64,000 nt of DNA from an uncultured Clostridia bacterium (lineage in GTDB: Bacteria; Bacillota; Clostridia; Oscillospirales; Acutalibacteraceae). Below are positions 33,142 to 44,625 of the stretch, in pieces. Position 1 is the stretch's first letter. Every line of letters begins with the position of its first letter. The stretch covers positions 24,690 through 88,689 of the forward strand of contig CALWDJ010000003.1 of assembly GCA_944376655.1 (NCBI GenBank). Direction: 5' to 3'. Below the pieces are notes generated by a model. The model saw only the letters and a list, made by a program, of their open reading frames with translations, searched no databases and was not told the DNA's origin. Position numbers and translations under genes: made by a program.

Positions 33142-33350
33142 TTATTTTTTCATATTCCTGCGGTCAAAGCCGGGATTGAAAGCATAAAAATTCTTGCAGT
33201 CAAGACGGTCTGTCGTAAGCCGCAGTGCTTCGCCGAAGCGCTGATAGTGGACTATTTCCCTCGCCCTTAAAAATTTCAGCGGCTCAATAATATCAGGATC
33301 ATCAATAAGCCTCAGAAGATTATCGTAAGTCACTCTTGCCTTCTGCTCTG
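33142..33350 (-). CDS. cotJC: cotJC C-terminal segment (interrupted spore coat gene)
   Basis: This is the last third of the manganese-catalase-like spore coat protein CotJC, from QKARVTYDNLLRLIDDPD to FYAFNPGFDRRNMKK. It includes REIVHYQRFGEALR, which carries the last histidine ligand of the di-Mn site (H169 of the rebuilt protein). Upstream of codon 137 the similarity stops exactly at the CAGAG core of element 1. The remaining open frame to 33414 is element sequence. The segment has no stop or frameshift and joins in frame to 38109-38336 when element 1 is removed. Confidence 0.9.
33346..33350 (-). other. element 1 attachment core, cotJC-3' side
   Basis: Minus-strand CAGAG, identical to the core at 38109-38113. 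Sequence 5' of it (to about 33372) is element arm; sequence 3' of it is cotJC codon 137 onward. Together with the other end it rebuilds a 50-bp palindromic attP centred on the GA of CAGAG. Confidence 0.85.
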
Positions 33351-33473
33351 GTACGATTATAAATGCACAACCGATCCCGAAACCCCTTGATTTTACTGGC
33401 TTTTTCGTTGGCACTTGCCTTTTCTGCCTACATTGTTAAAAGAACAACATCGGTTAAAATTTGTGCAAAATGA

Positions 33474-35027
33474 TTAGAAATTCCAGTGAATTTCAACGGG
33501 CGCGTGCTTCATACCCTTGAGGCGTTTCCCGATGATAATGTAGTCAATCATCTCCACAACCATCTCTCTGGTAAGGTGCTTGAGGTTGGCGTATTGTTCT
33601 ATCAACTCTCTGCGATTGTCACCGACCGCAATCTTTTCGTCCAGCTCGGCAATCTGCTTTTCGTTCTGGGTAATCAGCTTTTCCAAACGGTCACGATTAC
33701 TCATAAAATCCTTTGTCATTTCAGTATAATCGCTCTCATTCAGTAACCCCTTTACTTTATCCAAATAAAGGTCTCTGATGCCCTTTGAGTATTCCTCGAT
33801 CTTTTTCTGATAGGCAGTGTTATCGTCCAGCAACCCGGCTTTTTGCTCCTGTAGATTCGTGCAAAATACGATGCTGCGTTCTGCTTCATCCAAGTCCAAA
33901 TATTCTTTCGATAATCGGTTTAACTCTTCAATTACAAGCTGCTCCAAAGTATCTACCGAGATAAAGGAACCGATGCAGGAATCCTTTGCCACATGGCGGT
34001 TGGAGCATTGCAGATAGTGCTTGCCACGGTTTTTTGAGGAGCGCATCACATAACCGCAGCCCATACAGCGAGCCTTTCTTGCGAACAGTCCGACCGTTCC
34101 CACATCAAAGGGCTTTGCCCTTTCTCCAACCAGCTTCTGCACCCTGTCCCACAGCTCACGGTCGATAATCGGCTCGTGCGTGCCTTCCACCACATACCAT
34201 TCTTCTTTTGGGCGCGGCTTGCACTGCTTGGTCTTGTAGGAAATACTGCCGTACTTGCCCTGCACCATGTTGCCGATATAAATTTCGTTCGTCAGCATAT
34301 CGGAAATCGCAAAGTATTTCCAAAGGGTGCTGTTCTTGCCTTTGGGCTGCTTATATCGCAGACCGTGCAGGCGTTTGTATTCGGTCGGATTGGGAATGCC
34401 TCGGTCATTGAGCATACGGGCGATTGCGGTTTTTCCGTAGCCCCCGGCAAATAGGGTAAAAACTTCTCTTACAACTGCGGCGGCTTCTTCATCGATAATT
34501 AAATGTCCCTTGTGCTCCGGGTCTTTCTTGTACCCGTAAAGTGCAAAAGCGCCGATATGAAAGCCGTTCAGCCGTCTGTTTGTCAAGACGCTTCGGATGT
34601 TGTCTGACATATCCTCTAAGTACCATTCGTTGACAAGCCCGTTGATCTGGCGAGATTTTTTGTTGCCCTTATTGGCGGTATCCGCGTTGTCAACGATGCT
34701 GACAAAGCGAATCCCCCAAACAGGAAACAGACCGTGGATATACTTTTCCACAAGCTCCAGTTCACGGGTAAATCGCGACTGTGTCTTGCAGAGAATAATG
34801 TCAAAGCGTTTCGCCTCGGCGTCGGCAAGCAAACGGTTAAACTCGGGGCGGCGTCTGTCCGCGCCGGTATAGTCGTCATCGCTGTAAATATTGTAAAGCT
34901 CCCACCCCTGTTCCATGGCATATTGCAGCAGCATTGTTTTCTGATTTTGTATGCTGTTGCTATCATCGGTTTCAAATTGCTTGTTCCGATCTTCTTCGGA
35001 TAAGCGGCAATATATAGCTACTTTCAA
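33474..35027 (-). CDS. large serine recombinase of element 1
   Basis: Site-specific recombinase of 517 aa, full length. Catalytic domain: VAIYCRLSEED with the nucleophile serine at residue 10, DDYTGADRRRPEFNRLL, and the KTQSRFTRE arginine region. A recombinase domain follows (AALYGYKK..., GKTAIARMLNDRGIPNPTEYKR), then a zinc ribbon (CMGCGYVMRSS with CSNRH...C) and a coiled-coil segment with KMIDYIIIGKRL-like end. It starts at TTG with AAGGAG 8 nt upstream. It is the only intact recognisable gene in element 1 and the obvious enzyme for excising it from cotJC. Confidence 0.92.
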   Translation of the reverse strand: MKVAIYCRLSEEDRNKQFETDDSNSIQNQKTMLLQYAMEQGWELYNIYSDDDYTGADRRRPEFNRLLADAEAKRFDIILCKTQSRFTRELELVEKYIHGLFPVWGIRFVSIVDNADTANKGNKKSRQINGLVNEWYLEDMSDNIRSVLTNRRLNGFHIGAFALYGYKKDPEHKGHLIIDEEAAAVVREVFTLFAGGYGKTAIARMLNDRGIPNPTEYKRLHGLRYKQPKGKNSTLWKYFAISDMLTNEIYIGNMVQGKYGSISYKTKQCKPRPKEEWYVVEGTHEPIIDRELWDRVQKLVGERAKPFDVGTVGLFARKARCMGCGYVMRSSKNRGKHYLQCSNRHVAKDSCIGSFISVDTLEQLVIEELNRLSKEYLDLDEAERSIVFCTNLQEQKAGLLDDNTAYQKKIEEYSKGIRDLYLDKVKGLLNESDYTEMTKDFMSNRDRLEKLITQNEKQIAELDEKIAVGDNRRELIEQYANLKHLTREMVVEMIDYIIIGKRLKGMKHAPVEIHWNF

Positions 35028-35057
35028 TTTTCCATCTCCTTAGAGACAGAACAAGCT

Positions 35058-35098
35058 GTTTTCGTATATAGTATACCATACGAAAACCTATTTGTCAT
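35058..35098 (-). promoter_or_regulatory. recombinase promoter with overlapping palindromic operator
   Basis: Minus-strand ATGACA (35098-35093), 17-nt spacer, TATACT (35075-35070). A perfect inverted repeat, GTTTTCGTAT at 35058-35067 and ATACGAAAAC at 35078-35087 (plus strand), covers the spacer and -10 region. This looks like an operator whose binding protein would block recombinase transcription; the regulator is unknown. Confidence 0.7.
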
Positions 35099-35271
35099 CG
35101 TTTTTCACGCAAAAGCTCACGCTTTTGCTCCTTTCCAGCTTGTTGATAAGTTCTATCCAGATCTTTGTGAATACCTCTTTTGAGGTCGTGCTTTCGCCGC
35201 TTTTGAAAACACTTTTCACAAGGCCCGTTTCCATAAAAAGCCTCCTTCTCAGTTAAGGCGGCACAAGTCAT
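35095..35271 (-). CDS. possible small basic Cys-pair protein, element 1
   Basis: A 58-codon frame (ATG at 35271, weak TTGGA upstream; open to 35337) encodes a Lys/Arg-rich product with GPCEKCFQKRRK. It resembles nothing I recognise. It ends inside the -35 region of the recombinase promoter. Small basic proteins next to serine integrases can be recombination directionality factors, so the gene is worth testing, but it may be a chance frame. The plus-strand stretch 35281-35475 is open but has no support as a gene. Confidence 0.3.
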   Translation of the reverse strand: MTCAALTEKEAFYGNGPCEKCFQKRRKHDLKRGIHKDLDRTYQQAGKEQKRELLREKR

Positions 35272-35499
35272 TCCAACTTTATGATATATGAGCAGATTTT
35301 CGAGGGATTTTTTTGTTATGAGGTCACAGGAATACAAATGTATTTCAAAACCGAATACGGAAAAAGCACCGAAAATATGCCATATAGGGCTGGGCGGAAT
35401 GGCTTGCGCCGCCTTTTAGTACACTATATGAAAGGCGGCAAGTCCGCTATTCTTTACAGCGCGCAAGCAATATGAAAAGCGGCATTCATTTTGGCAAGT

Positions 35500-35531
35500 A
35501 AAAAAGCCCTTTGAACAAGTCAAAGAGCTTT
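35500..35531 (-). terminator. terminator after the MATE fragment
   Basis: Minus-strand AAAAGCTCTTTGA / TTCAAAGGGCTTTT with a CTTG loop and T-run, 22 nt beyond the MATE stop. Confidence 0.8.
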
Positions 35532-35552
35532 TATCAAATCATTTTTGCTATT

Positions 35553-36358
35553 TTAATTTTTTACGCAATCCTTTTTTATAAAAAATCGTTGTTGAATGAT
35601 TGAAATAATAAGGTGGACAACCATTCCGAAGCCGAACATCAGTATAATGGTATTTATATTAAATTTGATTAACCCGGTCAGATACAGTATATAAAATATA
35701 CCGTAATAGCCAAGATTGATTATGAGAGAATTGACTGCATTATAGACCGTTTTTCCAAACCCGATAAAAATATTATCGATAATGGCACAGCCTGCATAGG
35801 CAATATAGAACGGTGCAAGCTTGAGAGTAATTATAAATATCTCATTTGCATTGGATAGATTTTCGGCATAGCGGAAAAAAGGTAGCCATGCAGGTGTTGT
35901 GATCGCCAACAAGATAACAACCGCGCCGCCGATCAGGTAGTAATTTGTCTGTTTTAAGTTCTGATAGCCATCCTTGCAGTCGCTTCGGATAACCTCGGAA
36001 AGCGCCGTGATAGGTATCAGCAGCCAGCCCCAAATAAAGTTATTGGCAACCCAGTAGTTGCCCTGTTCGGCAACCATATTTACCATTTTGCAAACCATTA
36101 CGGCATAAATCAGATTATCCGCAAACTGTTGCAGTCCCGAAAAGGCACCGACTTTGCACCATTCCTTGAAAATACCGATATCCGACCTTCTGAATCGGGA
36201 AAAGCGAATGTATTTTTGCTTATATAGAATGAAAATACTTACAACTGCAAGCAGTGTGTTTGTGATAATATTTGAAATTGCAACGCCGTATACTTGAAAG
36301 CTCGGTATCAACAAAAAATCTGCAATCAAAGACAGAATGGTGCGTACACCTAAGAATA
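35553..36358 (-). pseudogene. MATE-family efflux transporter, 3' fragment
   Basis: From about 36358 the frame encodes a MATE C-terminal half: FLGVRTILSLIADFLLIPSF, VYGVAISNIITNTLLAVVSI and several further helices, ending with a Lys-rich tail. About 265 residues remain of a family of about 450. The listed upstream start is an artefact, because the first 40 codons are the recombinase fragment read in another frame. The 5' half is not in the window. The fusion point is inside the recombinase codons for GELPQY. Confidence 0.8.
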
Positions 36359-37002
36359 CTGTGGAAGCTCGCCGTAATTCTTTCTGCGGTGTTTGGTGAT
36401 GGGGTCTTCGCAGTATTCCTTCTGGAAAAGCATGTTCCCTGTGTAGGTGATGTTTGTTAGGATGACCTTCACATTGGAGTCCACCCACGGCTTTCCTTGC
36501 CGGGTATAAATGCCTCGTTGCATCAGGGCTCTGCCGATTTCTATGCGTGATGCGCCTTTCATATACTCAGCATACATCCAGCGGACGATCTCGGCTTCCT
36601 CCGGAATGATGACCAGCTTGTCATCCTGCCACTCATATCCGAATATCGAGAACTTGCCGTTGGGAATGCCTTGCTTGAATCGCTTTATCATGCCCCATTT
36701 GACGTTTTCCGAAATGCTGCGGCTCTCTTCCTGCGCAAAAGAAGCGAGGATGGAAAGCATCAGCTCTCCGTCACCACTCAAGGAATTGATATTTTCCTTT
36801 TCGAAGCGAACCTCAATTCCGAGATCCTTTAGGTGCCGGACTGTGTTCAAAAGATCCACAGTGTTCCTCGCAAATCGCTGAATCGACTTGGTGAGGATAA
36901 TGTCGATGTTTCCGGCTTCACACTCTGCCAGCATGCGATTAAACTCCTCACGTTTTTTGGTGTCGGTGCCAGAGATCCCGTAATCCGCAAAAACTCCAGC
37001 AT
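36350..37002 (-). pseudogene. second serine recombinase, internal fragment
   Basis: Homology starts abruptly at YAGVFADYGISGTDTKKREE and runs through ILTKSIQRFARNTVDLLNT, ASFAQEESRSISENVKWG and TGNMLFQKEY to KNYGELPQY. It then stops at a TAG where the MATE sequence begins. The N-terminal catalytic-serine segment and the C-terminal zinc-ribbon region are both missing, so it cannot be active. The GTG at 37054 only reads into the antisense of the helicase fragment. Confidence 0.85.
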
Positions 37003-37869
37003 AACTTAGTTGGGAGAACAGGGCGTTTATTTCAGCATTATTTAGGAGTAGCACATTACATAAAAACTCCGTCTGATCCGGTCTACGAGAAATCGCAGGC
37101 TTTGAAATCTATAGAATTTGAATTAACTGATTCAAGTATTGATATGGATATCAATTTTGGTGATTATAGAAAGCACCCCGAATTTGTCGATGTTCTTCAA
37201 AAGTTAGGAATTAGCTATGACGAGTATAAAGCTCAAATTGCTCGTAAACACCGGTTTTCAACGGTCGCATTTTTGCTAAATAGATATACGCAATCCAAAG
37301 CCAAACTTCTTGATATATTGTATAGACAAATGAGAGATCCAAATCAAAGTAAGCTGGAATTGGTTCGTGTGTTGTATGAAATATTGGAGGACAAGCCCCG
37401 AGATTTCAAACTTAATACTTTTATTATTAATCGCCTTACTTATAAATATCGTCAATCTGTAAGAGAAGTTGTTGATGCTACTGCTGAATATTACAAAAAT
37501 ACTGGTATATCGAAAATAATCAATACAACAATACGTTACAAATCAAGTTATATTGAGTTCGATTTTTATAACAAAGTAGATTTAATTCGCTACTTCATGC
37601 GTTGTGAAAATGTCAATGATTCTCTAATAAATACACTGCATGAACGATTGCTTAAAAATATCGAAATACTATACTATTTGACCACTCCAAGCAAGAAAAT
37701 GCTCAAGGACATGGGAATCTACGAGGGTGATATAGATCAAATTATCGCCATTATCGGGGACGATTTCACAAGCATTGCAGAACTCCAGCAATTGTTAACA
37801 GAGCACCTTGATAAGCTTGGAAAAATAAGTATTGTATCAAGATATATAATTAATCGCTTACTCAATTAA
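36998..37869 (+). pseudogene. SF2 helicase, C-terminal fragment
   Basis: The plus-strand frame is open from about 36998. Before the TTG at 37102 it reads NLVGRTGRLFQHYLGVAHYI, which is helicase motif VI (GRxGR), followed by a 255-residue helical C-terminal domain I do not recognise. The 5' part is lost at the junction with the recombinase fragment, and TTG-37102 has no ribosome-binding site. The stretch is visibly A+T-richer than the host genes, pointing to separate origin. Helicases of this form occur in phage-defence systems, but that link is only a guess. Confidence 0.6.
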
Positions 37870-37890
37870 CATATAGTAGAACGGTTATTC

Positions 37891-37936
37891 AAAAGACAAT
37901 GGCAGCTGGAATTTTTCCAACAGCCATTGTCTTTTT
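37891..37936 (+). terminator. terminator after the helicase fragment
   Basis: AAAGACAATGGC...GCCATTGTCTTT stem with inner CTGGAATTTTTCCAAC, followed by TTTT. A strong plus-strand hairpin. The remaining 170 nt to the element end hold nothing else recognisable. Confidence 0.85.
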
Positions 37937-38108
37937 ACTTGAATTTTTCTTTCAGAAAACAGCTTGTCCTATCGTATTTTTGTGATTTGTTGTTCTTATG
38001 AGGTCGCAGGCGGCGATTTGGAGCAAGAACCCTGAAAGTCCGGAAAACCGCATGAAATAAGGCTTTCTGGGGTATTGAAAACACAGGTTGTTCTTTCGTC
38101 ATCGTGCC

Positions 38109-38113
38109 CTCTG
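38109..38113 (-). other. element 1 attachment core, cotJC-middle side
   Basis: Minus-strand CAGAG, identical to 33346-33350. cotJC sequence (to codon 136) lies 5' of it and the element arm GGCACGATGACGAAAGAACA lies 3' of it. The arm is the mirror of the arm at the other end. Confidence 0.85.
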
Positions 38114-38336
38114 CCGCAAGGTCTTCATGAAGGTCGGTTATCGCGTCGCCTTTCGCCTGGATATAGGTAGCGGTCCACGGAAGACCCGACGCGGCCACCG
38201 GATATACGGCGTTGGTATGGTCCACAAAGTAGGTTTCAAAGCCGCTTTTCTTTATTTGCTCCGGAGTAAGATTTTTTGTAAGCTGGTGAACCATGGCGCA
38301 GATCATTTCCAGGTGTCCGAGCTCCTCTGTACCTAT
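38109..38336 (-). CDS. cotJC: cotJC middle segment (interrupted spore coat gene)
   Basis: Codons 61-136 of the rebuilt CotJC: IGTEELGHLEMICAMVHQLT, then FVDHTNAVYPVAASGLPWT, then GDAITDLHEDLAAE. It carries three of the five expected metal ligands (E65, H68, E136). It is bounded by the element 2 core on its 5' side and the element 1 core on its 3' side, with no internal stop. In the present arrangement it has no start codon of its own, so no CotJC is made unless both elements leave. Confidence 0.92.
38323..38336 (-). repeat. element 2 attachment core (attachment site at cotJC-middle side)
   Basis: Minus-strand ATAGGTACAGAGGA, a 14-bp direct repeat of 43918-43931. It encodes I-G-T-E-(E) of CotJC. 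The element arm begins at 38337. Confidence 0.93.
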
Positions 38337-38364
38337 TGAAGAACAAAATTGTTTATGATATAAT
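38336..38364 (+). promoter_or_regulatory. sigma-A promoter of element 2, overlapping its att arm
   Basis: TTGAAG (38336-38341), 17-nt spacer, TATAAT (38359-38364), reading into the small ORF and recombinase. The -35 and most of the spacer lie within the palindromic att arm (38337-38356), so recombinase bound at the site should block its own promoter. Confidence 0.75.
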
Positions 38365-38397
38365 AAGTACAACAAAATAAAAAAAGAGGTGTAAAAA

Positions 38398-38742
38398 ATG
38401 CCCTTAGATGATGAACTCAAAAACCACATTTTTAATTTTGTGAAACATCATACAACCTTAAGACAAGCACGAAATGCCCAAAAACTTCTGGAGAAACCTG
38501 ATTTGCTTCTTATCTACATCTTATCCGCATACAATATGCATGAGATAACCCAATTTGGGGGTATGCGGATGATAACAAACCCCGAAGCATTTTTACCCAC
38601 AGAGAAAGAGAAGAATGCTTTTATTCAAGAATTGAAAAAGTATGTTGCCACTCTTTATACATACAACGGAAAGGAAGTAAATTTTAATGGATACAACAGT
38701 AATTGCTCCGATTCACAAACCGCTGAAGACCGAAACGGATGA
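38398..38742 (+). CDS. small protein upstream of element 2 recombinase
   Basis: A 114-aa, helix-rich product behind GAGGTG, the first gene after the att site. I do not recognise a family. Features are LKNHIFNFVKHHTTLRQARN and a C-terminal half rich in charged residues. Its 3' end overlaps the recombinase start by 56 nt in another frame, so the two are co-transcribed and probably coupled. It could be a recombination partner (directionality factor) or a regulator; both are guesses. Confidence 0.65.
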   Translation: MPLDDELKNHIFNFVKHHTTLRQARNAQKLLEKPDLLLIYILSAYNMHEITQFGGMRMITNPEAFLPTEKEKNAFIQELKKYVATLYTYNGKEVNFNGYNSNCSDSQTAEDRNG

Positions 38743-40441
38743 ACAGTTAAAGGTTTGTGCTTACTGTCGTGTATCTACTGATGAAGCGGACCAGCGGAAC
38801 TCTTTAAAATCTCAAAAAAAGTTTTTTGCTGATATTTTCAAAAAACACCCGAACTGGACGAATGTTGGCATATTTGCAGATGAAGGAATCAGCGGAACAT
38901 CTTTAGAAAAGCGGGACCGTTTCAATGCTATGATAGCACTTGCAAAGCGAAAAGGTGTTGATGTTATTTTAACGAAAGAAGTATCCCGATTTTCACGAAA
39001 TGCCACCGATTTATTAAGCATAGTAAAAGACCTGCAAGACCGCAAGGTCTTTATATGGTTTTTATCGGATGACATCAATACCGAAAACCCGAACAGTATC
39101 CAACAATTAACCGAAACCGCCACATCCGCACAGGGCGAAAGCTTAAGAACATCCCGCCGAGTTGTTTGGGGGCAACAAAGACAGATGGAAAAAGGTATTG
39201 TGTTCGGGCGGAAAGAAATGTATGGGTATCGCATAGAAAGAGACAGCGAGGGCATACAACACTTTATTGTCGTTGAGGAAGAAGCGGAAATCATCAAAAA
39301 AATATTTGAATGGTTTGTGTCTGGCGATGGAACAACGATTATTGCCCGCCGTTTGGAAAACATGGGTATCAAAACCCTACGGTATAAAAACGGTTGGACG
39401 AATACCGTCATTCTGCGGATATTGCGGAATGAAAAATATGTCGGAGATTTAGCACAGGGCAAAACCTACACACCCGACCCGCTTACCCACAAGAAGAAAT
39501 ACAACAGAGGGGAAGCATATCGCTATTATATCACCGACCACCACCCCGAAAGTGCCATTATTGACCGGGATACATGGAACAAGGCACAGGTAATTCTTGC
39601 CGAGCGGAAACCGTCTGAAGAAGTGCGGGCAAAACATTCCGCCCGATACTGGACAAGCGGTAAAGTGTATTGCGGGTTGTGTGGCGGGCGATATGTCAGT
39701 TACCACAAGAAGCAGAAGACCATCCCTTATAAAGCATGGGTCTGCTTTGAGAACCACCAAAGAGGGAGATATAAAGAGAGCGAACAAAACGGGGAAATTG
39801 TTTCCACCGGTTGTAATGGGTTGCGGGTAAATGACAGAGTCTTAAAAATGGCAATGCATGACATCATCACACAGCTTGTTATCCCGCACAAGCAAGATAT
39901 TTGCGATAGTATCCTCAAGGAAATCAACACCGCACAAAAACCAAAAGACAACACCAAAAAGATACAGACCGCCAAAAAGAAAATAGAGCAAAAGCAGGCG
40001 GAAATTCAAACTCTAACCCGCAAGAACCTAAACGGTATCATCCCCGATAATGCCTACCAATTAACCTATAAGGCGATAGAAAGCGAAATAGAGGAATTGC
40101 AAATAACTATCGCCCAAATGGAAGCGGAAAGCGATATAGAAGCACCGGAAACGATTTTATATGACAGATATATGAAACAGGTTGAGGAAATTGTTAATTT
40201 GTCTGATGAACAGATAAACGAAGAACTATATGGGCGGATAACAAAAAAAGTTGTGGTATATCCGCTTGCCGTTTTGGAACTGCATTTGTCATTTATGTTT
40301 GCACCTGTTTATCTTCAATACAAAACATCTGGCAGGGGGGAGCAATATGATGTTGCCTTTACCATTCTAACCCACGAACAGTTTGAAAAACTAAAACAGA
40401 CTATGCCGAAAAACGAAATAGAAAAGGCAAAAGAGATATGA
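38687..40441 (+). CDS. large serine recombinase of element 2
   Basis: A 584-aa site-specific recombinase, apparently complete. Catalytic serine S30 lies in CAYCRVSTDE, followed by FADEGISGTSLEKRDRFN and LTKEVSRFSRNATDLLS. The recombinase domain spans about residues 190-300 (MYGYRIERD, TTIIARRLENMGIKT, YVGDLAQGKTYTPDP), the zinc ribbon is YCGLCGGRYVSYH with a distal Cys pair, and a long coiled coil lies at about 420-490. It reads away from the nearby att site and is only distantly similar to the element 1 enzyme, so the two elements arrived separately. Confidence 0.94.
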   Translation: MDTTVIAPIHKPLKTETDEQLKVCAYCRVSTDEADQRNSLKSQKKFFADIFKKHPNWTNVGIFADEGISGTSLEKRDRFNAMIALAKRKGVDVILTKEVSRFSRNATDLLSIVKDLQDRKVFIWFLSDDINTENPNSIQQLTETATSAQGESLRTSRRVVWGQQRQMEKGIVFGRKEMYGYRIERDSEGIQHFIVVEEEAEIIKKIFEWFVSGDGTTIIARRLENMGIKTLRYKNGWTNTVILRILRNEKYVGDLAQGKTYTPDPLTHKKKYNRGEAYRYYITDHHPESAIIDRDTWNKAQVILAERKPSEEVRAKHSARYWTSGKVYCGLCGGRYVSYHKKQKTIPYKAWVCFENHQRGRYKESEQNGEIVSTGCNGLRVNDRVLKMAMHDIITQLVIPHKQDICDSILKEINTAQKPKDNTKKIQTAKKKIEQKQAEIQTLTRKNLNGIIPDNAYQLTYKAIESEIEELQITIAQMEAESDIEAPETILYDRYMKQVEEIVNLSDEQINEELYGRITKKVVVYPLAVLELHLSFMFAPVYLQYKTSGRGEQYDVAFTILTHEQFEKLKQTMPKNEIEKAKEI

Positions 40442-40474
40442 GGGACTTTTCATTTTCCCTCATATCTCTTTTTT
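40433..40474. terminator. bidirectional terminator
   Basis: A 13-bp perfect stem GAGATATGAGGGA / TCCCTCATATCTC followed by TTTTTT on the plus strand. It overlaps the ends of both the recombinase and the convergent XRE gene. Confidence 0.85.
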
Positions 40475-40789
40475 ATCATTTAAGCGGTAGATTAAACCCT
40501 CTACCATTTTAAAATCTTCGGGCGAGAGTTTTGAAAGAACCTTGCAAATCTCGCTTAATTCCTTATCTGATTTTGTGCCTGTAAGGATATAATCGGCGGT
40601 GGTATCCAAAGCGATACAAAGATTGACAAGATTATCGGGGCGGATAGCTTTCTTGCCGAGTTCAATACAAGAAACCGATTGCAAACTGATACCCATTTCC
40701 TCTGCAACCTGTTCCTGTGTTTTATGCAACACTTTCCGCCGTTCTGCTATCCGTTTCCCCATATCTGTTAAAAATTTAGTTTCACTCAC
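40460..40789 (-). CDS. XRE-family helix-turn-helix regulator
   Basis: A 109-aa protein with the Cro/CI HTH at residues 10-65 (MGKRIAERRKVLHKTQEQVA, then ISLQSVSCIELGKKAIRPDN). The C-terminal 40 residues are helical and acidic. It is divergent from the zinc-ribbon gene across a short gap with a consensus promoter, so it is a candidate repressor of element 2. Repeated CATAG motifs near 40853 and 40884 could be its operators. Confidence 0.85.
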   Translation of the reverse strand: MSETKFLTDMGKRIAERRKVLHKTQEQVAEEMGISLQSVSCIELGKKAIRPDNLVNLCIALDTTADYILTGTKSDKELSEICKVLSKLSPEDFKMVEGLIYRLNDKKEI

Positions 40790-40868
40790 CGCTTTATACC
40801 TCGCTTTTTATATACAATCATTATATGAAAAAACAAGATATTTTATAATCAATCATAGTTTTAATATC

Positions 40869-40897
40869 TTGACATATTACAACCATAGTGTTATAAT
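40869..40897 (+). promoter_or_regulatory. consensus sigma-A promoter in element 2
   Basis: TTGACA (40869-40874), 17-nt spacer, TATAAT (40892-40897), 32 nt before the start of the zinc-ribbon gene. Both hexamers match consensus perfectly. Confidence 0.8.
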
Positions 40898-40928
40898 GTA
40901 TAAAAATGAAAAATGCGAGGGGAACAGT

Positions 40929-41627
40929 ATGACCAAAGAGATGCAGTGCCCTTTATGCGGCAAACAAATAGTAAAAAAGTTTATGGGCAGCGAACACGAT
41001 TATGTTAATTTGGGTGAATATTCAATTACCTGTTGTGCGGAGTGTGGGGAAAAGTATAACGATTTTGCAAATACATATCGTAAAATGATGGAAGCAAAGA
41101 TATATAACTTCAAATATAAAAGAAAACAAAAAATGGATGACCAAACCCTAAGTCAATTATTCCTTCAGTTTTATAAAGAAGCACAAAAATACTTGGAAAC
41201 AATGTCTGTTGCTACTTACAGTCGGGCCTTTTACTGCTTTGATGATAATGGGCACTTTGCCATTACCGAGAGCAAACTAGGGTCTTCAAATCGGGATATA
41301 AGTGCTAAGGATATGTTGAAATCCTTTAAAAAATCCCAACAGAACGATATTATTTATTTCACCAAAGCAGACATAGATAGAATTGAATACTGCATATTAT
41401 CCGGTGCTCCGCTTGGCATATTTAAAACAGCCTTTCCGGTTATGGTTCGACTTAACGACCACAAAGTTATGACCTTTAAACCTTGCATATCCAAAACCGC
41501 TGTAATCGGCAAAGGTATTTTCAAAAAAAGGTCTGCTGACAAGCAAGCATACCAACAACTCGTAACTTTTTGTCAGGATATAAAGGCAAGCAACATCCCG
41601 ATTGTAAGAGTAAAAAACTTCATTTAA
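40929..41627 (+). CDS. zinc-ribbon cargo protein, unknown function
   Basis: A 232-aa protein with an N-terminal Cys4 ribbon (MQCPLCGKQIV ... CCAECGEKY), a helical linker and a mixed C-terminal domain containing FCQDIKASNIPIVRVKNFI. No known function. The ATG at 40929 is chosen because GAGGGG precedes it and the promoter lies just upstream; the longer frame reads through the promoter. It is followed after 12 nt by a small membrane protein gene. Confidence 0.75.
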   Translation: MTKEMQCPLCGKQIVKKFMGSEHDYVNLGEYSITCCAECGEKYNDFANTYRKMMEAKIYNFKYKRKQKMDDQTLSQLFLQFYKEAQKYLETMSVATYSRAFYCFDDNGHFAITESKLGSSNRDISAKDMLKSFKKSQQNDIIYFTKADIDRIEYCILSGAPLGIFKTAFPVMVRLNDHKVMTFKPCISKTAVIGKGIFKKRSADKQAYQQLVTFCQDIKASNIPIVRVKNFI

Positions 41628-41639
41628 GGAGAATGTAAA

Positions 41640-41936
41640 ATGGAACAAACACAAACAAACGAGATACTGAAAAAAGAAGAAACAATTGCTGAAAATAAGC
41701 CTATGACCGTTTTGGACTACATTTTATTAAGCAGATATTTCCTTCCGATTTTAACAACTGTCGGCTGGGTTATAGGTTTTACTATCAGCCAAATCAAGTT
41801 TTTTGAAATACTCGCCTATTTCAGCATATCAATACTGCCCCGCAACCCCTGCTCTCGGCGGAGACTGCTTTCTCCTGTCATTATGCTGACCTTATACCCC
41901 AAAGAGGACTCAACCGCTTTGCTCAACCTATCGTGA
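41640..41936 (+). CDS. small membrane protein, 3' end probably altered
   Basis: A 98-codon frame behind AAGGAG. Residues 1-60 are plausible (charged N-terminus, then a hydrophobic segment LPILTTVGWVIGFTI). Beyond about residue 62 the frame simply reads the antisense of the relaxase, so the real protein was likely longer or different before the junction near 41820. Confidence 0.5.
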   Translation: MEQTQTNEILKKEETIAENKPMTVLDYILLSRYFLPILTTVGWVIGFTISQIKFFEILAYFSISILPRNPCSRRRLLSPVIMLTLYPKEDSTALLNLS

Positions 41937-42457
41937 AAAGTTTTCAGTTCGCTGCGGGTAATCAATTCATTTGCGGATATTTTATAAATATCTTTCTTCT
42001 TGTCGTAGAACACAGGCACAAAAGCAAAATGAATATGGTGCTTTCCTGCTTCATCCATATGCACCCAAGCAGAGACACAATGCTGATATTCACCTTTTAG
42101 AAAATCATAGACCGCTTGAAAAAACTTCCGTTCATCTTCCTTTTTCACATCATCCGGCAAGGACACCACCCAACTACACAACACCTTCAGGTCTTTCCGA
42201 TTATTGACCGTCAGGGAATACCCTTCAGGCAAGGTGTCCCCTCGCAATATCCTTTCATACATCTTTTGCTGATTTGCTGGGACACCCTGCTCGTTCAGGT
42301 TCAAGTTATAGTTCAAATGCGACCTGCTGGTGTCTATCTCCTTGTTGCTGTAATTGACATATATCCTTTGCCCATCTTCCCCGATACGGTACCCCCTGCG
42401 GAGATGCAAGAATATATGCCCCAAGCCTTGCCGACTGAACTTCTCATAGTGTGCCAC
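41816..42457 (-). CDS. MobV/Pre-type relaxase, C-terminally truncated
   Basis: Relaxases nick oriT to start conjugal mobilisation. The GTG at 42457 has GGAG 8 nt upstream and gives 213 aa. Visible motifs are SRSHLNYNLN (motif I region) and WVHMDEAGKHHIHFAFVP (HxDE...HxH metal motif III). Full MobV proteins exceed 400 aa; this one stops at a TAG right after SIDMLK, at the junction with the membrane-protein ORF. The nuclease domain may be intact while the C-terminal part is lost, so mobilisation ability is doubtful. Confidence 0.8.
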   Translation of the reverse strand: MAHYEKFSRQGLGHIFLHLRRGYRIGEDGQRIYVNYSNKEIDTSRSHLNYNLNLNEQGVPANQQKMYERILRGDTLPEGYSLTVNNRKDLKVLCSWVVSLPDDVKKEDERKFFQAVYDFLKGEYQHCVSAWVHMDEAGKHHIHFAFVPVFYDKKKDIYKISANELITRSELKTFHDRLSKAVESSLGYKVSIMTGESSLRREQGLRGSIDMLK

Positions 42458-42540
42458 CTTGACAACTCCTTTCAAAATCACCCTGCGGGTGAATACTGAA
42501 ATCAAATGCACTCCCGCTGCATTTAACTTCAGTATGTCGC

Positions 42541-42641
42541 TTTGCAACTTTTTTTGAAAGAAGTTGTAGCACGGTATGGGTTGCAAGCAACCCCCGTGCT
42601 CTGCGAGGCAAAGAAAAAGACACGGAACTCCGTGCCTTTTT
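42541..42641. other. hairpin cluster upstream of mob: candidate oriT and terminator
   Basis: Three inverted repeats in 100 nt: CAACTT/AAGTTG at 42545-42566; a strong nested hairpin at 42568-42600 (AGCACGG...CCGTGCT around GGGTTGC AA GCAACCC); and a terminator-like GACACGGA/TCCGTGCC with T-run at 42616-42641. MobV oriT sites lie upstream of mob and contain such repeats. Confidence 0.5.
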
Positions 42642-42656
42642 CTAATCGGGCATACT

Positions 42657-43196
42657 TTATTCAATGGAAAAGTCCTCAATCTCATTGTCTGCATTGATAT
42701 GCAATACCACACAATACCCCACGGTATCTTTGAGTTCAGCACCAAAATACCCGACATTAAAAGTAAAGACTTCATCATTATCCAATGTCAAGCGACCCTT
42801 TTCCATATCCACATCCATCACTATGCCCTCAATATGTCTGTTTTCCGCTGGTGGAAGAACCGCCAGCGGACTTTCTTTTTCTCCGTCAAAATCTTTGTGG
42901 GTGATATACCGCCCCTCACTATCGTATAAGTCCTTGTGATTTGCTTTGTTGATATTGTGCCATGCTCTGCTCGCTCGGTTTTGCTGGTTCGTATATACTT
43001 TGAACAATGTATAGGCGAGGGGGTCCGTCTGCAATTCCTCAAACCGTTCTCTCTCCTTGTCAATTTCGCCCGTCTCGTCCAGTTCGGCCAGAACGAAAAG
43101 GATATTGACCTTTTGCCTGTCGCTCAATGCTTCCATTTCCGAACGATAATTATAGTAAAATAAAATGCCTTTCTTTTCTCCGTTTTTCAGTCCCAT
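42657..43196 (-). CDS. element 2 protein with replication-organiser-like N-terminus
   Basis: A 179-aa protein. The N-terminal half (FYYNYRSEMEALSDRQKVNI, then ETGEIDKE) resembles small Firmicutes plasmid/phage DUF proteins related to replisome organisers. The C-terminal half is a beta-rich domain with GIVMDVDMEKGRLTLDNDEV. Function is not known. Its start overlaps the stop of the next upstream gene, so the two form a pair. Confidence 0.6.
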   Translation of the reverse strand: MGLKNGEKKGILFYYNYRSEMEALSDRQKVNILFVLAELDETGEIDKERERFEELQTDPLAYTLFKVYTNQQNRASRAWHNINKANHKDLYDSEGRYITHKDFDGEKESPLAVLPPAENRHIEGIVMDVDMEKGRLTLDNDEVFTFNVGYFGAELKDTVGYCVVLHINADNEIEDFSIE

Positions 43197-43441
43197 TATG
43201 CTTTTTCTCCTTTCTTGTTCTCATAATATCCCCTGTGTCTGTTCTGCTCTTTTTTAATGCTCTCCATTTTGGGAACAAAAACCGAGGTCATTAAGAGACG
43301 GACAACGGGCGACAATTCATCCCCATTGATATACCCATACTTTTCGTAATAGAGCAATGCCCTCATCAGTTCCCCAAAGTCCTCGTTAGACAGGTCTCCC
43401 GTCCATTTGTCTAATAGGGTTCTAATACTTTTCTTAATCAT
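43196..43441 (-). CDS. small element 2 protein paired with the previous gene
   Basis: An 81-aa protein: LLDKWTGDLSNEDFGELMRA, then YGYINGDELSPVVRLLMTSV, which is the same organiser-like pattern as the N-terminus of its downstream partner. This pattern is typical of small phage/plasmid DUF proteins whose job is unclear. It is the first gene after the iteron array, which fits a replication or copy-control role by position only. Confidence 0.55.
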   Translation of the reverse strand: MIKKSIRTLLDKWTGDLSNEDFGELMRALLYYEKYGYINGDELSPVVRLLMTSVFVPKMESIKKEQNRHRGYYENKKGEKA

Positions 43442-43629
43442 AGTTTGAAATGTCTCCTTTTCTTTTTTTATTTCCTTTTTTCAAGGGTAAAAAAAGTATG
43501 AAAGATTGAAATAAAAAAAGATTTTCTCTCATATCAAAAAAAACTCCGTGTGAGTTTGGGAACAGCTTGTTAATTTCCGCATAGGTTCAGAAACTTCCGT
43601 TTTTTCTCTTTTCCCTAATAACGAATAAC

Positions 43630-43782
43630 ACTTGGCAGTTGGAGTTCTCTTTCCTGATGACGGTTCTCCCTTGGGAATACCTGTTGGCGGTTGGAGTTCT
43701 CTTTCCTAATGGCGGTTTGCTCTTTGAAATTACGATAGCGGTTTTCTTTTCCTGTTGGCGGTTGCTTTATCTGTTGGCACTT
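43630..43782 (+). repeat. seven degenerate iterons, consensus TGTTGGCGGTT
   Basis: Copies start at 43630, 43655, 43682, 43707, 43733, 43753 and 43772, spaced 19-27 bp; best-conserved bases are TGGCGGTT. Two of them lie inside a larger 34-bp near-repeat (43632-43665 and 43684-43717). The whole gap 43442-43917 has no gene. Spaced iterons next to replication-like genes suggest a plasmid-type origin or regulator-binding array. Confidence 0.7.
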
Positions 43783-43917
43783 ATATAAAGAGGAATCAAT
43801 CTATACAAGGAATAAATGATATAAGAGGAAACACACACCCATTGACTTAAAACCAATGCTTTACTGTGACCATTACATACCCTTAAAACAGCAACAAAAT
43901 AAAATAAACAATATTTT

Positions 43918-43931
43918 TCCTCTGTACCTAT
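43918..43931 (-). repeat. element 2 attachment core (attachment site at cotJC-5' side)
   Basis: Minus-strand ATAGGTACAGAGGA, identical to 38323-38336. The element arm is immediately downstream on the minus strand (43904-43917), with ATTGTTTAT mirroring ATAAACAAT of the other arm. Confidence 0.93.
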
Positions 43932-44111
43932 ATCGGTAAGCATTCCCTTGATTTCATTGTAGGGCTGCGAATAACGCTGTGTAAGATAACGCATCGACGC
44001 GCCGAGCTCGCCATCGGGTCCTCCGTACTGTGATATTATTATTTGAGCGTATTTAGGATTGGGATTTTTTATTTTAACCGGATATTGCAGTTTTTTCTCG
44101 TATTGCCACAT
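43918..44111 (-). CDS. cotJC: cotJC N-terminal segment (interrupted spore coat gene)
   Basis: Codons 1-65 of spore coat protein CotJC, a manganese-catalase-family protein: MWQYEKKLQYPVKIKNPNPK, then SQYGGPDGELGASMRYLTQR with metal ligand E35, ending at TDIGTEE. After the 14-bp core the frame runs about 50 codons into element 2 (to 43767). That tail is unrelated to CotJC, so the present product would be a nonfunctional 114-aa chimera. It begins 4 nt after the cotJB stop, the normal operon spacing. Confidence 0.93.
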
Positions 44112-44114
44112 AAC

Positions 44115-44381
44115 TCAACCCTCCATAAAGTCGGTATCCCACGGCCACGGACCGTCAATCCATTTCCAGCTGTCTGACATCGGTACATCGTTTGTCGTAA
44201 CTATATACTTGCCGTATTTTGATTCATATTCTGCCACGGCGCTGTCCCGTTTTTTTCTGTATTCCTCCATAAGCTGCATTGCTCTGCGGCTTGTCGGGTG
44301 AGAATCAAGAAACAGAACAAGCTCATACAGCGCAAAGTCTAACTCGTATATTTTTTTCTTCATTGCCGCGCGCTCATTCAT
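44115..44381 (-). CDS. cotJB: spore coat protein CotJB
   Basis: An 88-aa coat protein: YELDFALYELVLFLDSHPTS, DSAVAEYESKYG and a C-terminal WKWIDGPWPWD, the CotJB signature. In Bacillus cotJABC is a sigma-E operon whose products enter the inner coat. Its start overlaps the cotJA stop by 8 nt. Intact. Confidence 0.93.
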   Translation of the reverse strand: MNERAAMKKKIYELDFALYELVLFLDSHPTSRRAMQLMEEYRKKRDSAVAEYESKYGKYIVTTNDVPMSDSWKWIDGPWPWDTDFMEG

Positions 44382-44625
44382 ATTTCTCGCCCCCCATAAA
44401 CGGTTTGTTCAAATCCGGAAACAGCGTACCGTTCTCAAACGCTTCTTCAGTATCGTATACTCTCCCGAAGGGCTGCACATTTATAAATACCATTGTAAGC
44501 GGATCCTTGCATTCTCTGACCGGCCGAAAAGCCGTATCAGGCTGCTGCATCTGCGCTAATACGGGAATCGCCTCGTTATAGCTGTTTGTCCTGTAAAAAT
44601 CGGACATATCAAACATTTTATGCAT
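44374..44625 (-). CDS. cotJA: spore coat-associated protein CotJA
   Basis: An 83-aa protein with IPVLAQMQQPDTAFRP, MVFINVQPFGRVYDTEEAFE and GTLFPDLNKPFMG, the CotJA pattern. First gene of the cotJABC operon; CotJA is needed with CotJC for coat assembly in Bacillus. AAGGAG boxes lie upstream. I could not fix a convincing sigma-E promoter in the upstream 120 nt. Confidence 0.9.
   Translation of the reverse strand: MHKMFDMSDFYRTNSYNEAIPVLAQMQQPDTAFRPVRECKDPLTMVFINVQPFGRVYDTEEAFENGTLFPDLNKPFMGGEKYE

Follow-up and report, generated by a model that had tools for sequence, protein, structure and literature searches.

Background

Mobile elements that intervene in sporulation genes are described as a handful of cases, from Bacilli and a few Clostridia, in the available excerpts of the papers cited here. 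The subject of this report is the spore coat gene cotJC in a 64,000-nt stretch of contig CALWDJ010000003.1 from an uncultured Clostridia bacterium (the window), in which two elements, termed A and B, split the gene into three pieces. Like these elements, skin of Clostridioides difficile is an insertion with a large serine recombinase (LSR) in a mother-cell gene, sigK, and its precise excision rebuilds the gene; its recombination directionality factor (RDF), CD1234, is under sigma-E and SpoIIID, and its LSR is not sporulation-specific (PMC5025042). The gin element in gerE of Bacillus cereus ATCC10987 is, like them, a non-phage element with serine recombinases in a small sporulation gene; it has a 9-bp core and an RDF-like factor, GirX, and rearrangement occurs in sporulation (PMC5595907).

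In the mother cell the spore-envelope gene spsM is rebuilt when a serine recombinase excises SPbeta from it, as excision of the cotJC elements would rebuild cotJC, and skin, vfbin and vrin are cited in the same source (PMC4191935). The yin element in the sporulation gene yabG of Clostridium botulinum resembles them in its LSR and its 14-bp repeat, and an excised circle and a putative RDF are described for it (PMC10747680). The prophage phi027 of C. difficile has an attachment site that adjoins a CotJC-like gene (PMC11222575, PMC12122855).

The split cotJC gene and its empty site

The genome that holds the window was sampled as an assembly of 1.99 Mb in 55 contigs, 95.9% complete. It has exactly three matches to the Pfam manganese (Mn)-catalase family PF05067, collinear on the minus strand of one contig. 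Piece 1 (43918-44111, running from codon 1 into core A at about codon 65) covers profile positions 1-66, piece 2 (38109-38336, core A to core B) positions 56-151, and piece 3 (33142-33350, core B to the stop) positions 149-196. Each is stop-free and above the curated cut-off. An earlier reading of this DNA made from the letters alone (the sequence-only reading) had described cotJC as three in-frame pieces, and the three open, ordered matches agree with it. A virtual join of the pieces gives 203 codons with E35, E65, H68, E136 and H169, the five residues that the same reading expected for an Mn-catalase and which we take to be the Mn ligands. The notion that the pieces are three separate working proteins was rejected by reasoning, because the ligand residues are distributed over the pieces.

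Element A (38337-43931, 5595 bp with one repeat copy included) separates pieces 1 and 2 and is bounded by the 14-bp direct repeat ATAGGTACAGAGGA at 43918-43931 and 38323-38336. Element B (33351-38113, 4763 bp with one CAGAG core included) separates pieces 2 and 3; its junctions, at 33346-33350 and 38109-38113, have only CAGAG in common. One complete LSR was found in each, as expected for two separate serine-recombinase elements. LSR2, in element A (38687-40441, plus strand, 584 amino acids [aa]), matches Pfam Resolvase and Recombinase and has homologues at codon 64 of cotJC; LSR1, in element B (33474-35027, minus strand, 517 aa), matches Resolvase, Recombinase, Zn_ribbon_recom and DUF4368 (31.3 bits, cut-off 25). 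The catalytic and recombinase domains are complete in both. A direct-repeat core at both ends and a serine recombinase of its own are features that each element shares with the sporulation gene-intervening elements.

Important is the presence of an unsplit cotJC in a species of the same genus (G023, locus L013), found when related genomes were searched for an uninterrupted gene, as had been proposed. All 203 residues align with the virtual join at 99.0% identity and with no gap, the flanks of the locus have 87-89% DNA identity to the window, and elements A and B are both absent. Thus this empty site shows in sequence that removal of both elements restores the frame scar-free, and the 203-codon gene predicted to result has a real counterpart. 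The window's pair is an in-frame interruption of a sporulation gene with an intact empty site elsewhere. The two separate serine-recombinase elements of the sequence-only reading are thus supported, a sister species has the empty site with the frame exactly kept, and the likeness in working principle that this reading had drawn to skin, SPbeta and vfbin is supported and extends to gin.

The joined cotJC differs from the G023 gene in 63 codons synonymously and in 2 nonsynonymously, distributed over pieces 1, 2 and 3 as 19/0, 25/0 and 19/2 (synonymous/nonsynonymous). Judging by this pattern, cotJC has been strongly constrained, at any rate up to the time of the insertions.

Recurrence of cotJC breaks

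PF05067 matches were found in 120 of 149 relatives, and in 28 of the 149, from which candidate broken places were fetched, cotJC pieces are bounded by breaks; that count excludes the contig-edge candidates G106, G063 and G007, and the contig-edge loci L056, L058 and L073 were dropped. The breaks recur at three positions, at about codons 29 (site C), 64 (site A) and 137 (site B), at or near the ligand-holding motifs GGPDGEL, TEELGHLE and LAAEQKAR. Of the 28 broken-cotJC relatives, 17 have an LSR within the element or adjacent to it; in the other 11 none was found with two LSR queries in the fetched stretches. The complete elements are 3.2-16.7 kb long at site B (n=18) and 5.6-14.4 kb at site A (n=6).

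Double occupancy of the gene also recurs. Breaks at both A and B are present in the window, in G124 (L034), G118 (L035), G415 (L184), G439 (L097), G316 (L198), G383 (L196), G298 (L208) and G337 (L230), in Blautia sp. An249 (L113), in L182 and in the viral contigs L237-L239, as well as in L180, a locus that begins at a contig edge. Sites C and B are both broken in L117 and L135, and sites C and A in L227 and L229. Just 2 of 258 cotJC pieces, a number that includes overlapping loci, have an unexplained boundary, and decayed pieces can be missed by the open-frame search. The sequence-only reading had presented the locus as a two-element version of the known developmental excisions. A private device of this kind is not supported: the locus belongs to a class that recurs and moves horizontally.

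Recombinases that target cotJC

A search with LSR1 of 394 genomes of the order returned a group of close relatives at 30 loci. All 30 loci examined lie in cotJC at codon 137; 29 adjoin the break, and one has the C-terminal (C) piece about 4.3 kb off. In the GTDB species genomes, the best 80 of at least 572 LSR1 relatives were examined, and 75 of these 80 are in cotJC. The break is directly adjoined in 71, a cotJC piece lies a few kb away in four more (L133, L173, L180, L181), and the remaining five loci are L107, L115, L144, L155 and L174. Cultured Roseburia, Blautia and Anaerotignum are among the carriers, and cultured commensals with such a locus include Anaerotignum lactatifermentans DSM 14214 (L114), Flintibacter muris DSM 110149 (L146) and Roseburia faecis M72 (L165). 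The LSR1 sets of 30, 80 and (for upstream sequences, below) 104 overlap, e.g., L075/L104 and L079/L119. LSR2 homologues (37-100% identity) are in cotJC in 28 of 30 loci, 26 with the break within 1.5 kb and two, L206 and L207, in longer stretches; L222 and L231 are the others. More distant LSRs (about 35-50% identity, n=20) lie in cotJC in six cases, and 14 are without a cotJC piece shown. The phage collection gave one distant partial match.

LSR1 genes with a nonsynonymous divergence (dN) of about 0 and a synonymous divergence (dS) of 0-0.3 are found within cotJC genes whose synonymous divergence is saturated. Examples are L156 (Diplocloster modestus) with L158 (Clostridium fessum), and L113 (Blautia) with L114 (Anaerotignum). 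Near-identical LSRs in very diverged cotJC genes indicate that the elements move horizontally and keep their target unchanged. For the same reason dN/dS of the split state was rejected as proof of vertical domestication. L159/L162 alone resemble recent common descent, with a dS of 0.08 for the LSR and, for the cotJC C piece, a dS of 0.20 and a dN of 0.

Both orientations of the element occur. In 6 of 29 LSR1 loci of the order (L084, L086, L090, L092, L096, L097) and 12 of 71 GTDB loci (L111-L114, L117, L135, L156, L158, L160, L161, L165, L182) the element is inverted, such that the LSR end abuts the upstream cotJC piece. The arms of attP look by eye like inverted repeats, which would fit insertion in either orientation.

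Three loci have unusual arrangements. In L133 (7040-14223) a cotJC insertion has an intact LSR1 and, next to the C piece, another LSR1-like copy that is split over several frames, as if elements were stacked. L175 (4802-11778) holds an N-terminal piece, an apparently intact cotJC, a C piece and LSR1 in one locus, and the intact copy may be within the element or adjacent to it. In L199 (10321-18357) the LSR1-type gene at the cotJC C piece has three more LSR genes upstream of it, in tandem.

A small gene ahead of LSR1 and its promoter

In the window a small open reading frame (ORF) of 48 aa lies ahead of LSR1 (35088-35234, minus strand) and belongs to a conserved family. Among 104 LSR1 sequences, six with truncated upstream DNA were dropped, including L003, a cut copy of the window's LSR1. 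In 93 of the 98 usable sequences a conserved small protein precedes LSR1, with the approximate consensus CKSVFKSGENTTTKxxFTKxWIELINxLEKxK. Its place and conservation make it a candidate excision factor, a putative RDF. Neither this protein nor the 114-aa product ahead of LSR2 (below) has a family in NCBIfam or PHROGs. In second-tier LSRs (n=20, one without upstream DNA) just two small-ORF scores were obtained, at chance level (3.3 and 6.8 bits).

Promoters were compared in 89 sequences, the 93 minus four without a usable start or with less than 100 nt upstream. Within 100 nt ahead of the small ORF the -10 sequence CATANNNT is present in 85 of 89, and the bipartite ATA-N15..18-CATANNNT in 65 of 89. 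After removal of similar sequences the bipartite motif remains in 44 of 59, whereas 200 dinucleotide shuffles gave 0.95 on average and 4 at most; the background in other ORFs of at least 200 aa in the same loci is 13/561. The ATA and AC bipartite motifs correspond in the B. subtilis consensus to promoters of sigma-E, early in the mother cell, and sigma-K, late in the mother cell. The cotJ operons have this -10 sequence too, with a different -35. The sigma-K-type AC-N16/17-CATANNNT precedes 18 of 33 cotJ operons and 4 of 89 small ORFs, whereas the sigma-E-type ATA-N16..18-CATANNNT precedes 0 of 33 and 64 of 89, respectively. The 33 operons do not include the window's own cotJA, which the pattern did not catch. 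Read by that consensus, the cotJ promoters are predicted to be sigma-K-type. A Subdoligranulum variabile record outside the motif set has, by eye, the same gene order and promoter. At site A a different small protein family lies ahead of many of the LSRs.

Other features of the locus

Directly upstream of cotJC is an ORF (44115-44381, minus strand) that is presumably cotJB, preceded by another (44374-44625, minus strand) that is presumably cotJA. Within element A, a 114-aa ORF lies ahead of LSR2 (38398-38742, plus strand) and may encode a directionality factor; by eye it is similar to same-place ORFs in L048 and L253. Further on are an HTH_3 regulator by Pfam (40460-40789, minus strand) and a MobV-type relaxase (41816-42778, minus strand; Pfam Mob_Pre; NCBIfam MobV 77.1 bits, below the cut-off of 100). 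The viral contig L253 has a 61% LSR2 relative, and its left end resembles the site A core of cotJC by eye; no cotJC piece was detected in this contig.

Element B has two ORFs without a Pfam family, at 37102-37869 (plus strand, 255 aa) and 35553-36488 (minus strand, 311 aa, membrane-like by eye). Genes resembling those for SigE and SpoIIID are present in the source genome; they score 321.7 bits (cut-off 348.6) and 106.9 bits (cut-off 111.5), respectively, each slightly short of the curated threshold.

Proposed course of excision and its alternatives

The probable explanation, in our judgement, is that A and B are two mobile elements with cotJC as their attachment site, and that the element-B class is excised in the sporulating mother cell. 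Element A would insert through LSR2 at codon 64 and element B through LSR1 at codon 137. Their short cores sit inside conserved codon motifs, such that precise attL x attR recombination would restore the frame. In the element-B class the small protein, read as the directionality factor of LSR1, would be made from a sigma-E-type promoter in the mother cell. Excision would then come one step before the sigma-K-type cotJ promoter acts, and cotJC would be whole when needed, while the forespore would keep the element. With two elements in one gene, two excisions would be needed.

We lean, somewhat less firmly, towards a wider proposal. In it cotJC of gut spore-formers would serve mobile DNA as a docking site tied to development. 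Two LSR lineages or more, and probably three, would use it at conserved codon motifs adjacent to Mn-ligand residues, in records whose titles name Oscillospiraceae and Lachnospiraceae. One lineage would have an excision factor wired to the early mother-cell sigma factor of the host, leaving one sigma step before cotJ transcription, and many hosts would need two independent excisions per coat protein.

Several observations weigh against these proposals. The window's small ORF and its closest relative, L041, are without the bipartite motif; the sequence upstream of the window's ORF resembles, by eye, that of relatives with the -10 stretch lost. LSR2 and the 114-aa ORF are preceded, where element A ends, by TTGAAG-N17-TATAAT, a promoter of sigma-A-like type (38336-38364, plus strand, by eye). 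A sporulation-type signature is thus not recognisable in either element of the window, and the sporulation timing of this pair is extrapolated from relatives. The sequence-only reading is thus supported in part: on the link of excision to sporulation, relatives add a putative excision factor whose promoter is of mother-cell type, and the window's own elements lack the recognisable signature. Among relatives, the small ORF was not found ahead of LSR1 in five of the 98 loci (L197, L099, L085, L080, L174), and the strict sigma-E motif is weak at site A (5 of 25 small ORFs). Of 18 second-tier LSRs without a small-ORF match, four (L259, L260, L264, L269) show the bipartite motif in a 220-nt stretch, perhaps by chance. 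There is no clear enrichment of a SpoIIID box as defined in B. subtilis (7 of 59, shuffle mean 4.0, maximum 9). In B. subtilis cotJ is sigma-E-dependent, which weakens the sigma-K reading of the cotJ promoters.

Other points concern the elements themselves. Element B looks composite, with a truncated serine recombinase inside it (36350-37054, minus strand; Pfam Resolvase, partial Recombinase). It also holds a 35-nt imperfect direct repeat (74%), at 35296-35330 and 37976-38010, which resembles an att arm and points to several insertions stacked in B. Some of the elements are inverted, and, since the elements move, most of the constraint seen in cotJC may date from before they inserted. Neither an attP circle junction nor an excised form was found in the window's own assembly with up to 3 mismatches allowed. 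The attP pattern gave five matches in the 394 genomes of the order versus three for a reversed control pattern. Those in G129 and G130 were rejected as circles, being attL junctions by position, and the match in G111 has no LSR1 or cotJC match within 20 kb; the other two lie in G230 and G439. A Subdoligranulum "plasmid" with LSR1 was likewise rejected as an excised circle, as its LSR1 adjoins a cotJC C piece.

The alternative that survives best is that cotJC is merely a favoured integration site for ordinary mobile elements that excise sporadically, in carriers that sporulate without a dispensable CotJC. The horizontal movement of the elements, the relaxase in element A and the lack of a mother-cell promoter signature in the window all accord with it, as does the report that C. 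difficile coat-catalase mutants have no significant coat-formation defect (PMC11222575, available excerpt). The frequency of the sigma-E-type promoter, 65/89 over a background of 13/561, is however hard to explain without a developmental role, and so few unexplained boundaries among the cotJC pieces, with the reservation on decayed pieces given above, also speak against sporadic loss. We consider this alternative unlikely.

Much less probable still is that cotJC is dead in this lineage, permanently inactivated by the insertions and due to decay. All three pieces are open, the codon differences to G023 are overwhelmingly synonymous and neither LSR is truncated in its catalytic or recombinase domain; however a recent insertion would give the same intact pieces and codon pattern, and the composite state of element B and the missing excised form fit a dead gene as well. 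An assembly artefact or chimeric contig, suggested by the 55 contigs and by breaks of several relatives near contig ends, can be dismissed almost entirely, as the pieces lie in order on one contig and the same breaks are present in one- and two-contig genomes (G076 in L047, G415 in L184) and in records of cultured isolates.

The feature is thus real and recurrent, and excision and its timing are predicted.

Comparison with known elements

No published interruption of cotJC was found in the open full-text literature, where most subscription papers and preprints are missing. Within that literature phi027 is the nearest case in the excerpts available. It lies beside a CotJC homologue without splitting the gene, whereas the cotJC elements split theirs (PMC11222575, PMC12122855).

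Skin and the cotJC elements differ, going by the available text of PMC5025042, in the target gene, and the cotJC elements differ further in their many host species, their horizontal spread and the presence of two elements per gene. The skin RDF is small and under sigma-E and SpoIIID, and for the cotJC elements there is a candidate small RDF with a sigma-E-type promoter in relatives. However that text does not place the skin RDF next to its recombinase in the same arrangement, and in the cotJC element a small ORF of other sequence is directly ahead of the LSR. Excision has been shown for skin (PMC5025042), whereas for the cotJC elements it is predicted from sequence.

As described in the excerpts, gin is a single element of 28.6 kb with three recombinases (PMC5595907), in contrast to the two separate elements of 4.8 and 5.6 kb in cotJC. 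SPbeta is a prophage, one element per gene, in a gene other than cotJC (PMC4191935). The yin element is reported as unique to one strain (PMC10747680), whereas the cotJC elements are a recurrent class. DUF4368, which LSR1 has, is common in a multi-targeting LSR clade (Durrant et al. 2022, PMC10083194, excerpt); the LSR1 family is however single-site, as the 30/30 and 75/80 loci in cotJC show, and does not enter many genes.

Thus, as far as searched, the target gene, the recombinase families and the double occupancy are new, and the predicted mechanism is as in known gene-intervening elements. The cotJC elements add to these a large transferable class in common gut anaerobes, including cultured species, with repeated double insertions per gene. 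They also add a new LSR family and a candidate RDF family with a defined attB, in which the candidate excision factor travels with its own developmental promoter. This makes testable how mobile DNA adopts a cell-fate programme of its host, and why a Mn-catalase coat gene is such a target.

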